From contig NZ_KE383820.1 in the NCBI RefSeq assembly GCF_000422365.1, forward strand, positions 277,324 to 341,323: a DNA stretch of 64,000 bases, in the 5' to 3' direction. The position numbers and the translations under genes are program-made. The stretch is from Mesoflavibacter zeaxanthinifaciens DSM 18436. Its GTDB lineage: Bacteria; Bacteroidota; Bacteroidia; Flavobacteriales; Flavobacteriaceae. Positions 15,850 through 27,852 of the stretch are shown here, piece after piece; the stretch's first letter is position 1, and each line of letters starts with the position of its first letter. The notes below the pieces were generated by a model. The model ran no database searches and was not told where the DNA came from. It was given only the letters and a program-made list of their open reading frames with translations.

Positions 15850-15975
15850 ATGTTATCAAGAAAGGCAGAGGGAATAGACCCAATGAAGCCTTAGCAACCC
15901 TTAGACTTACTAAGAAGGTGCTAAATTCTACTTGAAAGTGCGAATCATTTCTCGCATTCTCGGATAGATAACTAA
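15850..15975 (+). promoter_or_regulatory. SAM-I (S-box) riboswitch
   Basis: The core is recognisable by eye: TTATCAAGAAAGGCAGAGGG, then GACCC-AATGAAGCC, TTAGCAACCC and AAGGTGCTAAATTCTAC, closing with GATAGATAAC. The P1 helix pairs GTTATC (15852-15857) with GATAAC (15967-15972). It binds S-adenosylmethionine in the known family. It lies 120 bases before the O-acetylhomoserine sulfhydrylase gene, as expected for repression of methionine synthesis. Confidence 0.92.
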
Positions 15976-23742: not shown

Positions 23743-23772
23743 TTTGATTTTTCAATTAATTGTCTACTTTAG
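23743..23772 (+). promoter_or_regulatory. Probable promoter of the aromatic amino acid operon
   Basis: TTTG at 23743-23746 and TACTTTAG at 23765-23772 are 18 bases apart; the -7 box has one mismatch to TAnnTTTG. The leader ATG is 17 bases downstream, giving a leader of roughly ten bases before the short peptide. Confidence 0.5.
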
Positions 23773-23788
23773 CAATAACAAAAAAATA

Positions 23789-23866
23789 ATGAACACAATT
23801 TTAAATACATATTATAACTGGTTTTACTTCTTTTTTAACGAAAAGAACGAGACGTTGTATATGTAA
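23789..23866 (+). CDS. Aromatic operon leader peptide (Phe/Tyr/Trp-rich)
   Basis: A 25-codon ORF with the core YYNWFYFFF: four Phe, four Tyr and one Trp in the whole peptide. It ends at TAA 23864-23866 and precedes a strong terminator and the operon pheA-aminotransferase-tyrA-DAHP synthase. Codons 20-23 contain CGAGAC, which can pair with the 5' arm of the terminator. The arrangement is that of ribosome-mediated attenuation, where stalling at Phe/Tyr codons would free the antiterminator. As with the ilv leader, the call rests on composition, position and competing RNA structures rather than homology. Confidence 0.82.
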   Translation: MNTILNTYYNWFYFFFNEKNETLYM

Positions 23867-23919
23867 TTTAAACAGCATAAATTTAATACTAAGTCTCGAT
23901 TTTATCGGGACTTTTTTTT
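23848..23919 (+). terminator. Aromatic operon attenuator: antiterminator and terminator
   Basis: The terminator stem AAGTCTCGAT (23891-23900) pairs with ATCGGGACTT (23904-23913): ten pairs, one T-G, loop TTT. A run of T (23912-23919) follows. The antiterminator strand CGAGAC (23848-23853) pairs with GTCTCG (23893-23898), and TT 23855-23856 may add to it with AA 23891-23892. The pheA ATG begins at 23920, directly after the last T. Confidence 0.82.
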
Positions 23920-24747
23920 ATGACAAAAACAATAGCAATACAAGGTATACAAGGCTCTTTTCATCATATAGTGTCGTTAAATTATTATGATAACACACAT
24001 AAAGTGAAAGAATGTTTAACGTTTGACGAAACGGTTGCATCCTTATTTGATAATACCGCAGAAACAGCAATTATGGCATTAGAAAACTCTATTGCTGGTT
24101 CTATTTTGCCAAATTACGCGTTAATAGATAATAATAATTTACACATTGTTGGCGAGCAGTATTTGGATGTGCAACATCAATTAATGGCATTACCAAACCA
24201 AACAATTGCAGATATAAAAGAAGTACACAGTCATCCTATGGCGCTATTGCAATGCAAATCATTTTTTAAAGACTTTCCGCATATCAAATTAGTCGAAGAT
24301 AAAGATACTGCAGATGTGGCAAGAAAAATTGAAGCACAGCAAATAAAAGGTGTTGCAGCAATAGCAAGTACTTTGGCGGCACAGATTTTTAATTTAGACA
24401 TTTTAGCCGAAAGTATTCAAACCATAAAACACAATCAAACCCGATTTGCTATTGTAAAAACGCAACCAATTAACAATCATAAAAACGAAATTAATAAAGC
24501 GTCATTAAAATTTGAATTAGACCATAAAAGAGGAAGTTTGGCAACAATTTTAAATGTGATGAGCGATTGTAAACTAAACCTTACCAAAATACAATCCTTA
24601 CCAAAAATTGAAACACCTTGGAAATACTCATTTTTTGTCGATGTCACTTTTGAAGCTTATGAAGATTTTGAAAAAGCAGCATCAATTATGACAATAATGG
24701 CAACTCATTTTAAAATTTTAGGAACCTATAAAAACGCAAAACTATAA
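23920..24747 (+). CDS. pheA: Prephenate dehydratase
   Basis: 275 residues, without the chorismate mutase domain that is fused in E. coli PheA. The catalytic domain begins TIAIQGIQGSFHHIVS, includes ALENSIAGSILPNY near residue 54, and keeps the TRFAIV element near 168. A C-terminal ACT domain (about 190-272: HKRGSLATILNVMSDCKLNLTKIQSLP) would bind phenylalanine. It turns prephenate into phenylpyruvate. It starts directly after the attenuator T run, with no Shine-Dalgarno site. Confidence 0.94.
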   Translation: MTKTIAIQGIQGSFHHIVSLNYYDNTHKVKECLTFDETVASLFDNTAETAIMALENSIAGSILPNYALIDNNNLHIVGEQYLDVQHQLMALPNQTIADIKEVHSHPMALLQCKSFFKDFPHIKLVEDKDTADVARKIEAQQIKGVAAIASTLAAQIFNLDILAESIQTIKHNQTRFAIVKTQPINNHKNEINKASLKFELDHKRGSLATILNVMSDCKLNLTKIQSLPKIETPWKYSFFVDVTFEAYEDFEKAASIMTIMATHFKILGTYKNAKL

Positions 24748-25886
24748 TGAAAGTTGCAGATCGATTACATAGCGTTCAAGAATATTACTTTTCTCGTAAG
24801 TTAAAAGAAGTCAATCAATTAATTAAAGACGGAAAACCAATTATTAATTTAGGGATTGGTAGTCCAGATTTAGAGCCACCAAAACAAGTGGTTGATGTTT
24901 TGGTAGATAGTTTAGTACATCCTGTGGCGCACAAATACCAGAGTTATCAAGGGTTACCAGAATTAAGAACAGCAATTGCAGATTTTTATAACTCTGAATT
25001 TAATGTCGAAGTAAATCCTGATACCGAAGTTTTACCACTTATGGGAAGCAAGGAAGGTATTATGCATATTTCTTTAGCGTTTTTAAATGAAGGCGATGCT
25101 GTTTTAATACCAAATCCGGGTTATCCAACTTATAGCTCGGTGACACAATTGGTACAAGCAACACCAATGCATTATAATTTAGATGAAACCAATAATTGGC
25201 TGCCAAATTTTGAAGCTATCGAGCAGCAAGATTTAAGCAAAGTTAAATTAATGTGGACCAGTTATCCGCATATGCCAACAGGTGCAAAAGCGACAAAAGC
25301 CGATTTAGAAACGTTAGTCGCATTTGCTAAAAAGCACAATATTTTATTAATAAATGACAATCCGTATAGCTTCATTTTAAATAATAATCCAATAAGTATT
25401 TTAGATGTTGAAGGTGCAAAAGATGTCGCTTTAGAGCTAAATTCGTTAAGCAAAACATTTAATATGGCAGGTTGGCGAGTTGGAATGGTTTTAGGAAAAG
25501 CAGAGCATGTCAATGCGATTTTAAAAGTAAAAAGTAATATGGATTCTGGTATGTTTTACGGAATCCAAAAAGGTGCGATAGAAGCTTTAAAATGCTCATC
25601 AGCTTGGTATAAAAGTTTAAATGAAATTTATAAAAGCAGACGCGAACTTGTTTGGAAATTAGCCGATAAATTAGATTGTACGTACGATAAAAATGCAACA
25701 GGATTATTTGTTTGGGCAAAGTTACCAGAAGGAAAAACATCTGAAGCATTTATAGATCAAATTTTATACAACAACAGCGTGTTTATTACACCAGGAACCG
25801 TTTTTGGTTCTCAAGGCGAAGGTTATATACGTTTTTCGCTTTGCGCTAAAGAAGCACAAATTAAAGACGCAATTAGTAGATTATAA
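24747..25886 (+). CDS. Class I/II aminotransferase of the aromatic operon
   Basis: 379 residues, fold type I PLP enzyme. The PLP lysine is Lys236 in NSLSKTFNMAGWRVG. The first base of its ATG overlaps the pheA stop (TAATG). The operon suggests that it makes phenylalanine and tyrosine from phenylpyruvate and hydroxyphenylpyruvate. The usual NPTG element reads YPHMPTG (about 173-179), so the Asn that contacts the PLP ring oxygen is replaced by Met; such variants occur in related aminotransferases. Substrate specificity (aspartate, aromatic or LL-diaminopimelate type) cannot be fixed from sequence alone. Confidence 0.85.
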   Translation: MKVADRLHSVQEYYFSRKLKEVNQLIKDGKPIINLGIGSPDLEPPKQVVDVLVDSLVHPVAHKYQSYQGLPELRTAIADFYNSEFNVEVNPDTEVLPLMGSKEGIMHISLAFLNEGDAVLIPNPGYPTYSSVTQLVQATPMHYNLDETNNWLPNFEAIEQQDLSKVKLMWTSYPHMPTGAKATKADLETLVAFAKKHNILLINDNPYSFILNNNPISILDVEGAKDVALELNSLSKTFNMAGWRVGMVLGKAEHVNAILKVKSNMDSGMFYGIQKGAIEALKCSSAWYKSLNEIYKSRRELVWKLADKLDCTYDKNATGLFVWAKLPEGKTSEAFIDQILYNNSVFITPGTVFGSQGEGYIRFSLCAKEAQIKDAISRL

Positions 25887-26737
25887 TGAAACATATATAC
25901 ATCATAGGAACAGGCTTAATTGGCGGTAGTTTGGCATTAGATTTTAAAAATGCGTTGCCAGACTGTATCATTTATGGTATTGATAAAAACGAAGCGCATT
26001 TAATAGAAGCGCAAGAATTAGGCGTTATTGATCAAAAAGCAACTTATGAAGATTTGCCAAATGCAGATTTGGTAGTGCTTGCAATTCCAGTAGATGTTGC
26101 GGTAAATGAGTTGCCAAAAGTACTGGATAAAGTGTCTGATTTTTCGGTAGTGATAGATGTTGGTTCTACAAAACAAGCTATTTGTAAAGCGGTAGATAAT
26201 CACCCAAAACGTCGTAACTTTTTAGCAACACATCCAATTGCTGGTACCGAGTTTTCTGGTCCTAAAGCAGCTATTCAAAATTTATTTAAAAATAAAACAA
26301 ATATCATTTGTGAAGTCGAAAAAACCGCATCAAAATTACAAGAACAAGTTTTAAATGTGTTTTCAAAAATAGGTATGCGCATGCGTTACATGAATCCAGA
26401 ATCGCATGATAAACATATAGCATACGTGTCGCATTTATCACACATTAGTTCGTTTATGTTAGGAAAAACTGTAATAGAAAAAGAAAAAAACGAACGCGAT
26501 ATTTTTGATATGGCAGGATCTGGTTTTGAAAGTACAGTTAGACTTGCAAAAAGCAGCCCAGAAATGTGGACGCCAATTTTTGAGCAGAACAAACAAAATG
26601 TCGTAGAGACTTTAGAAGAGTATATTCAAAATCTTTCAATGTTTAAACAAATGATTGTAGAAGACGATTTTCAGTCGGTTTACAAAGCAATGAAAGACAC
26701 TAATTATATAAAACAAATTTTAAACGGAATACATTAA
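25886..26737 (+). CDS. tyrA: Prephenate dehydrogenase
   Basis: 283 residues. The NAD(P)-binding motif is GTGLIGGSLALD at 8-19, and the catalytic-site segment is THPIAGTEFSGP near residue 112. It makes 4-hydroxyphenylpyruvate from prephenate. It overlaps the aminotransferase gene by one base, so translation is coupled. There is no ACT domain, in contrast to longer TyrA proteins, so tyrosine feedback is not expected through such a domain. Confidence 0.93.
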   Translation: MKHIYIIGTGLIGGSLALDFKNALPDCIIYGIDKNEAHLIEAQELGVIDQKATYEDLPNADLVVLAIPVDVAVNELPKVLDKVSDFSVVIDVGSTKQAICKAVDNHPKRRNFLATHPIAGTEFSGPKAAIQNLFKNKTNIICEVEKTASKLQEQVLNVFSKIGMRMRYMNPESHDKHIAYVSHLSHISSFMLGKTVIEKEKNERDIFDMAGSGFESTVRLAKSSPEMWTPIFEQNKQNVVETLEEYIQNLSMFKQMIVEDDFQSVYKAMKDTNYIKQILNGIH

Positions 26738-26769: not shown

Positions 26770-27852
26770 ATGGAAAACAAGAAAGAATTAAGAACATGGT
26801 TGGACGATTTACAATTAGATCATCCTTTAGTAATTGCAGGACCATGTAGCGCAGAAACCGAAGAACAAGTTTTAAAAATCGCTCACGATTTAAAAGATAC
26901 AGACGTAAGCTATTACAGAGCAGGAATCTGGAAACCACGAACAAGACCAGGTAATTTTGAAGGTGTTGGTGCATTAGGTTTAAAATGGTTACAAAAAGTT
27001 AAGGAAGAAACAGGATTAAAAACAGCTACCGAAGTTGCTAATCGTGCACACGTAGAATTAGCGCTAGAGCATGATATTGATTTGTTATGGATAGGAGCAA
27101 GATCTACGGTTAGCCCTTTTATTGTTCAAGAAATTGCAGACGCTTTAAAAGGAACAGATAAAGTAGTGTTAGTTAAAAACCCAGTAAACCCAGATTTACC
27201 GTTATGGTTAGGCGCGATAGAGCGTTTAGCGAGTGCAGATATTAAAAAGTTAGGAGTCATACACAGAGGATTTTCTACGTATGAAAAAACAAAATACAGA
27301 AACAATCCAGAATGGCAATTAGCTATCGAGTTGCAAACCAAGTTTCCGGATTTACCGTTAATTAACGATCCGTCGCATATAACAGGAAAACGTGATATGA
27401 TTTTTGACGTATCACAAACCGCATTAGATTTAAACTTTGATGGATTAATGATCGAAACTCATTTTGATCCAGATAACGCGTGGAGTGATGCTGCACAACA
27501 AGTTACACCAAGTAGTTTAGTGCAAATTATGAAAGATTTACGCATTAGAAAAGAAACCGATCCTGAAGCAGAGTTTAATAGAGACTTAGCCAATTTAAGA
27601 GCTAAAATAGATGTTGTAGATAATCAAATTATCGAGCTTTTAGGAAAGCGTATGCAAGTAGCAGATGGTATTGGACAGCTTAAAAAAGAAAAAAACGTAG
27701 CAGTTTTACAAAGCAAGCGTTGGAATGAGATTTTAGGAAAAATGGTGCTTGAAGGCGAGCAAAAAGGATTAAGTGAAGAGTTTATTTTAAAGTTATTTAA
27801 AGCTATTCATCAAGAATCTATAAATCATCAAGAGAAAATTATTAAATCTTAA
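26770..27852 (+). CDS. Bifunctional DAHP synthase / chorismate mutase
   Basis: 360 residues. The N-terminal three-quarters are a KDPG-type DAHP synthase barrel (IAGPCSAET near 21, YRAGIWKPRTRPGNFEG near 55, and NDPSHITGKRD near 198). The C-terminal 90 residues are an AroQ-type chorismate mutase (LRAKIDVVDNQIIELLGKRM..IGQLKKEKN). It supplies both the first step of the shikimate pathway and the prephenate for PheA and TyrA. It lies 32 bases after tyrA and closes the operon before a terminator. Confidence 0.94.
   Translation: MENKKELRTWLDDLQLDHPLVIAGPCSAETEEQVLKIAHDLKDTDVSYYRAGIWKPRTRPGNFEGVGALGLKWLQKVKEETGLKTATEVANRAHVELALEHDIDLLWIGARSTVSPFIVQEIADALKGTDKVVLVKNPVNPDLPLWLGAIERLASADIKKLGVIHRGFSTYEKTKYRNNPEWQLAIELQTKFPDLPLINDPSHITGKRDMIFDVSQTALDLNFDGLMIETHFDPDNAWSDAAQQVTPSSLVQIMKDLRIRKETDPEAEFNRDLANLRAKIDVVDNQIIELLGKRMQVADGIGQLKKEKNVAVLQSKRWNEILGKMVLEGEQKGLSEEFILKLFKAIHQESINHQEKIIKS

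Follow-up and report, generated by a model that had tools for sequence, protein, structure and literature searches.

A phenylalanine- and tyrosine-codon-rich leader overlaps alternative RNA hairpins upstream of the aromatic amino acid operon in Flavobacteriaceae

The aromatic amino acid operon of Mesoflavibacter zeaxanthinifaciens DSM 18436 is preceded by a leader of 25 codons, many of them for phenylalanine or tyrosine, that overlaps a set of alternative RNA hairpins. We examined this element in a 64,000-nucleotide stretch of the genome (hereafter the window) and in the corresponding loci of relatives. From comparative sequence data and modeled folds, we conclude with high confidence that ribosome-mediated transcription attenuation by charged tRNA-Phe and tRNA-Tyr is its best explanation. 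A first-pass annotation had described a 25-codon ORF containing YYNWFYFFF, a CGAGAC motif able to pair with a downstream GTCTCG, and a hairpin at 23891-23913 with a T run. Translation and inspection of the sequence recovered all of these where they had been placed (Table 1); the ORF has 25 codons plus a stop, with YYNWFYFFF at codons 8-16. The CGAGAC of strand 2 sits inside the leader reading frame, the GTCTCG of strand 3 is also part of the 5' arm of the terminator, and the T run directly abuts the pheA ATG at 23920.

Table 1. Positions of the leader elements and operon genes, in window coordinates.
Feature	Position	Strand	Description	Basis
Putative -33-type promoter box	23743..23746	+	TTTG, 18 nt before the -7 box	Kept in most, not all, rows of the 27-leader alignment A1
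Putative -7-type promoter box	23765..23772	+	TACTTTAG (consensus TAnnTTTG)	Sequence
Leader peptide ORF	23789..23866	+	MNTILNTYYNWFYFFFNEKNETLYM, then stop	Translation; aromatic ORF at the equivalent place in relatives
Control codons	23810..23836	+	Y8 Y9 N10 W11 F12 Y13 F14 F15 F16, putative stall sites	Translation
Protector hairpin (1:2)	23800..23872	+	Codon stretch paired with strand 2	MFE fold
Strand 2	23848..23853	+	Core CGAGAC, codons 20-22; extended by 23857-23860	Sequence, pairing, fold
Strand 3	23886..23898	+	23886-23889 and GTCTCG 23893-23898; partner of strand 2	Predicted antiterminator fold
Intrinsic terminator	23891..23919	+	10-bp stem 23891-23900/23904-23913, 3-nt loop, T run 23912-23919	Sequence, fold
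pheA, prephenate dehydratase	23920..24747	+		PF00800, E 5.2e-52
aat, class I/II aminotransferase	24747..25886	+		PF00155, E 2.7e-62
tyrA, prephenate dehydrogenase	25886..26737	+		PF02153 and PF20463; NF006307 above cut-off (389 vs 295 bits)
DAHP synthase/chorismate mutase	26770..27852	+		PF00793 and PF01817, above cut-offs

The Pfam matches agree with the downstream gene identities given by the first-pass annotation, pheA-aat-tyrA-DAHP synthase/chorismate mutase. The best NCBIfam model for pheA is prephenate dehydratase, with 186.2 bits against a cut-off of 219; the best models for the aminotransferase are LL-diaminopimelate aminotransferases, also below their cut-offs; and the best model for the last gene, bifunctional DAHP synthase/chorismate mutase, scores 189.7 bits against a cut-off of 279, the operon DAHP synthase being assigned by Pfam. 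The genome has two PF00793 proteins, one in the operon and the other a KDO8P synthase (TIGR01362, 367.7 bits, cut-off 314), and a class II DAHP synthase was not found in it. The operon thus carries the sole DAHP synthase detected in the genome. The order pheA-aat-tyrA-DAHP synthase/chorismate mutase recurs in 79 of the 80 named-record loci, and one shows the first three genes only.

The leader is widely conserved around pheA. Among 60 relatives, 44 had a pheA match, 34 of them in the family of the window, and the leader is present in 32 of these 34 family genomes, including the congener (L002, genome G001). Twenty-seven of the first 30 family loci carry an aromatic leader close upstream of pheA, each followed by a terminator hairpin according to our script (27/27), and all four remaining family genomes (G011, G013, G017 and G026) have leader and terminator. 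In one genome, G014, the leader is displaced to about 600 nt upstream of pheA (L006), with tandem repeats between them; a separate look at this genome (L158, contig C21) showed a repeat unit of about 100 nt, present in several tandem copies, between attenuator and pheA. An aromatic cluster is absent throughout the 3.8-kb locus of G024 (L025) and in the 380 nt of contig upstream of pheA in G036 (L026). Leader and terminator are also found in 79 of 80 named-record loci (the best 80 of 583 matches), the exception, L110, having no leader within 900 nt. The closest pheA relatives among named records, a set that may omit entries for this very genome, belong to Lacinutrix, Confluentibacter and Psychroserpens, all genera of Flavobacteriaceae. 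The first-pass annotation had staked its reading on the leader being present in close relatives with pheA at the same position, which these counts bear out, and the comparative alignment of pheA upstream regions that it proposed (27 leaders, alignment A1) shows conservation of promoter, codon stretch and alternative helices.

Beyond the family, loci were chosen with a PF00800 profile search of the phylum (296 genomes, of which 258 matched), which served this choice only. From 31 class-level matches, 20 upstream regions and four genomes were taken; G372, G378, G413 and G446, as well as the family members G079 and G083, were left out. The wider set comprised 40 loci: the four family genomes named above and 36 loci outside the family but within the order or class. 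A leader was found in 24 of the 40, with a terminator in 22 (none was detected at L143 and L145), and the remaining 16 had no leader by the criterion used. Counted outside the family, 20 of 36 loci have a leader and 18 have both elements. All five loci (L123-L127) of one family of the order with a divergent PheA lack the leader, as do all 20 loci from outside the class, hand-chosen from the matches listed. Two loci, L122 and L144, show two tandem aromatic leader ORFs upstream of pheA, possibly double attenuators.

The intergenic DNA is AT-rich, and TTT runs encode phenylalanine, so that one might suspect a chance poly-Phe ORF in T-rich sequence, followed by an ordinary terminator of the upstream gene. 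Letter-shuffled upstream regions yielded 0.0 leaders (20 shuffles per locus over 60 loci, including all 40 of the wider set), tyrosine codons occur in 104 of 104 distinct leaders, and the leader persists in L144, where the upstream region has 51% GC. Moreover, the gene upstream of the leader is divergent, on the minus strand, and therefore no upstream transcript needs ending there. We consider the probability of a chance arrangement very low.

Further evidence for an RNA switch comes from the pairing of strands 2 and 3. Across the 27 aligned leaders, 157 of 162 positions are paired between the two strands; when strand 3 was exchanged among rows, the mean was 147.4 (sd 1.5), and none of 2000 exchanges reached 157. 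Counting Watson-Crick pairs only, the leaders have 148 against 130.4 in row exchanges (0/2000), and a control window after the stop gave 99. Since the sequences are related, the significance of such row shuffles is weaker than that of independent trials. The two arms swap together between clades, as in CGAGAC/GTCTCG, CGGGAC/GTCCCG, AGGATTGT/ACAATCCT, AGCGGGA/TCCCGCT, GAGCGGTC/GACCGCTC and CCGGGACT/AGTCCCGG. When the helix search was limited to a set interval downstream of the last aromatic codon, no more than 2 of 50 letter shuffles were as good as the best strand 2 helix in 90 of the 101 family-level leaders, and in the other 11 the helix had no clear advantage; an unconfined search for the best helix picked other, mostly AT-rich helices in L023, L028 and L030. 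For the wider set, the helix beats shuffles (at most 5 of 100 as good) in 16 of the 22 leaders with a terminator, four of the 22 being from the family, and does not in six. The protector helix is likewise favored across leaders, scoring 1758.5 against 1429.9 (sd 27.9) in row shuffles, with 0 of 200 as good.

The spacing between codons and strand 2 points the same way. In all 101 distinct leaders strand 2 begins 10-15 nt after the last aromatic codon, counted from the first base of that codon; the value is 14 nt in 53 of them, with a standard deviation of 1.26 overall. Since the search range was 6-26 nt, a wider spread was possible. This "ruler" extends to the wider set, where it spans 8-16 nt (mean 12.5, sd 2.1; 22 of 24 leaders, those with a terminator; search range 4-32 nt). 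The distance from the last aromatic codon to the stop ranges from 6 to 36 nt (sd 9.3), and in 21 of the 106 leaders the stop precedes strand 2, so that covering of strand 2 by a terminating ribosome cannot be identical in all. The front edge of a ribosome lies about +12 to +13 from its A-site codon; a ruler of 10-15 nt would therefore leave strand 2 uncovered by a ribosome that stops no further along than the last control codon. Judged from the sequences, a fixed codon-to-strand-2 spacing combined with a free stop fits just what stalled-ribosome attenuation needs.

These patterns also bear on whether the element might be a metabolite- or protein-sensing RNA, such as an unlisted riboswitch, with a coincidental short ORF. 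It is a structured, conserved 5' element with a terminator, and no Rfam family matches the locus at gathering score, points in favor of such an RNA. Its conservation, however, tracks the reading frame and the aromatic codons, the spacing is fixed to the last aromatic codon, and the alignment has no conserved core besides promoter, codon stretch and alternative helices. We regard a sensing RNA as extremely unlikely.

Predicted folds are consistent with attenuation. The RNA from 23789 to 23925 folds at -30.2 kcal/mol, against a mean of -15.2 for dinucleotide shuffles (z -5.2, 0 of 200 as good). The first-pass annotation had proposed attenuation governed by aromatic aminoacyl-tRNA levels, a reading now supported by the compensatory changes, the fixed spacing and three exclusive predicted folds of similar energy: the protector alone at -16.7 kcal/mol, the antiterminator at -11.6 (before strand 4 exists) and the terminator hairpin alone at -10.9. 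To its description we add the protector hairpin and a second antiterminator helix, 23857-23860/23886-23889, which makes the antiterminator longer than CGAGAC/GTCTCG. Without a ribosome, and before strand 4 exists, the protector is predicted to prevail (-17.3 kcal/mol). With the ribosome edge assumed, a ribosome at F16 is predicted to let the antiterminator form (-11.6 kcal/mol), and one at the stop, the terminator (-11.2 kcal/mol). Once all of strand 4 is present, the terminator state is predicted at -14.7 kcal/mol even if strand 2 is free, versus -12.2 with the antiterminator enforced, a difference of 2.5. As the terminator state is favored at equilibrium, antitermination must win by forming earlier, and the order of formation matters.

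Three features of ribosome-mediated leader-peptide attenuators are found at the locus: a short ORF in which codons for the operon's own amino acids are clustered; mutually exclusive protector, antiterminator and terminator helices, according to predicted folds and covariation; and a putative stall site that would leave strand 2 free, according to the ruler and the ribosome footprint. In the mechanism we propose, a ribosome would start the leader without a Shine-Dalgarno site and trail the RNA polymerase. When Phe-tRNA or Tyr-tRNA is scarce, it would stall within codons 8-16. Even with F16, the last of these, in the A site, its front edge would lie just short of strand 2, which could then pair with strand 3, blocking the terminator and allowing transcription of pheA-aat-tyrA-DAHP synthase/chorismate mutase. 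When charged tRNAs are plentiful, the ribosome would reach the stop at 23864 and cover strand 2 or, alternatively, depart and let the protector hairpin trap it. In either case strand 3 would pair with strand 4 and transcription would end before pheA.

The position of the terminator raises the question of whether the hairpin chiefly hides the pheA start codon, acting on translation. At the locus in the window, the T run ends immediately before the pheA ATG, and the predicted fold pairs the end of the T run and the ATG with an upstream CAUAAA. Across 106 loci, however, the distance from the terminator to the pheA match ranges from 0 to 411 nt; it exceeds 30 nt in 37 loci and is no more than 10 nt in 29. 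For 27 loci this distance was counted from the end of the T run and for 79 from the end of the hairpin, and the match may begin a few codons inside the gene. The tandem repeats of G014 separate terminator and pheA by several hundred nucleotides. The 411-nt gap occurs in a Gelidibacter locus (L043). Because this distance is not conserved, translational occlusion by an abutting terminator was rejected, and control through the start codon appears highly unlikely. We retain transcription attenuation as the preferred reading.

The signals for expression of the leader are in keeping with a Bacteroidota host. The upstream box is TTTG, which we take to be the Bacteroidota -33 consensus. A box of the form TAnnTT[T/A][G/A] is found no more than 70 nt from the leader start codon in 81 of the 101 distinct leaders. 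The -7 consensus TAnnTTTG is described at positions -12 to -5 (PMC9723704). Because of where the -7 box lies, the predicted transcription start falls near 23777, about 12 nt before the leader ATG, which would give a 5' UTR of about 12 nt. None of the Shine-Dalgarno-like words searched for precedes the leader ORF in any of the 101 distinct leaders, and an A occupies position -3 in 89 of 106 leaders, a positive determinant in F. johnsoniae (PMC6847099).

As to which amino acids are sensed, all 104 distinct leaders have at least two phenylalanine and at least two tyrosine codons, and 60 of the 104 also contain tryptophan (104 rather than 101 because of slightly different duplicate rules). As the sole DAHP synthase detected lies in the operon, sensing of any aromatic amino acid would make sense. 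The idea that leaders without tryptophan occur in genomes with a second DAHP synthase was not supported: all 37 family genomes examined have exactly two PF00793 matches, whether or not the leader has tryptophan, the second match being identified as KDO8P synthase in the window's own genome only, and no class II DAHP synthase was found in the 37. Tryptophan sensing is the least secure part of the reading, as the codon could be kept for protector pairing. We propose only tentatively, and think it rather doubtful, that a single leader integrates the charging of Phe-, Tyr- and, where kept, Trp-tRNA to set the cell's only DAHP synthase, in a phylum that does not rely on Shine-Dalgarno sites, with a class-wide ruler and a stop free to lie on either side of strand 2. 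The rarer phenylalanine codon TTC makes up 167 of 538 phenylalanine codons in 106 leaders versus 1 of 50 in the four operon genes of the window, and in alignment A1 it often stands within a block such as TAT TTC TTT TTT. Speculatively, TTC may serve in the leader to interrupt T runs.

Structured 5' elements upstream of pheA and hisG, occurring in other Flavobacteriaceae genera and without Rfam hits, were reported in F. psychrophilum, together with strong clues that operons for amino-acid biosynthesis are preceded by leader-peptide attenuators (PMC9723704, 2021). Compared by position and description, the F. psychrophilum pheA element resembles ours: it is a transcribed 5' region that precedes the same gene, is conserved across Flavobacteriaceae and has no Rfam hit. 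The passages of that paper compared here do not give its peptide, codons, pairing or spacing, which Table S7 or the supplementary information may hold. The matches listed in our literature searches contained no description of this pheA leader peptide, and those supplements may already hold one. The kind of switch was already known; the ruler, the covariation, the class-wide spread and the codon logic are what the present analysis adds to that paper.

Two Rfam families invited comparison. The pheA locus scores 18.3 bits with Phe_leader (RF01859, the enterobacterial pheL-pheA element; gathering score 55) and gave no match with Bacteroid-trp (RF01692), and membership in either family was rejected on these grounds. 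The pheL-pheA attenuator has phenylalanine codons in a leader ORF, alternative helices and a terminator before pheA. The present leader differs from pheL as generally described in also having tyrosine codons, in serving an operon with tyrA and DAHP synthase, in the absence of a Shine-Dalgarno-like site and in the location of strand 2 within the ORF. Bacteroid-trp, a predicted Trp leader of the same phylum, is listed in PMC2864571 and stands before the trp operon of F. psychrophilum (PMC6414381). It has one match in the genome, on contig C8 (MNTILNHTWWWNFKISIFVK; 67 bits vs 49; 75 of 2262 first-look candidates scored). The C8 leader differs from the pheA leader in having a control codon run of tryptophan only and, judged by eye, the alternative partner of its strand 2 appears to be the terminator loop and 3' arm, not the 5' arm.

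This trp leader (L177, C8:75324-75650 of the window's genome, G000) and the pheA leader (23789-23806) are identical over their first 18 nt, ATGAACACAATTTTAAAT. The first 17 nt of this sequence occur at two places in the genome with at most one mismatch allowed, both exact, and a reversed control pattern had one match. Trp leaders of some relatives start alike (MNTILNHTWWW, MNTILNNTWWW). These shared starts suggest copying or a favored start context. Other regulatory leaders were also seen. Upstream of hisG, on contig C1, lies a His-rich leader (L163), MTFIQLHHHHFHTCTQAS, followed by a strong terminator whose 5' arm can pair, by eye, with the end of the ORF. As a chance control, terminator-like hairpins were collected from both strands of the window; of the 15 found, our script's criteria place a short codon-biased ORF ahead of two, namely that of the pheA leader and that of a leader at 2376-2441. 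The latter is Ile/Val-rich, MNKQIVNIISIISIVIIKSRC, with a terminator at 2474-2499, and is apparently the ilv leader mentioned by the first-pass annotation. A SAM riboswitch (RF00162, 75.7 bits) lies at 15850-15974 on the plus strand.

In the part of a 2010 survey cited here (PMC2965389), leader peptides were known only in Proteobacteria and Actinobacteria, to which the survey added Firmicutes. The aligned leader sequences assembled here are sufficient to found an Rfam family, and the ruler offers a natural measure of where the front edge of the ribosome stops in bacteria that initiate without Shine-Dalgarno pairing. Because the operon carries the sole DAHP synthase detected, the switch would control entry to the aromatic pathway as a whole; as far as sequence comparison and models can tell, it probably restricts production of the aromatic amino acid enzymes in this flavobacterium to conditions in which those amino acids are scarce. 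The class-wide occurrence of a Phe/Tyr leader suggests that such switches are in routine use in this class of Bacteroidota, here at the entry step of aromatic biosynthesis.
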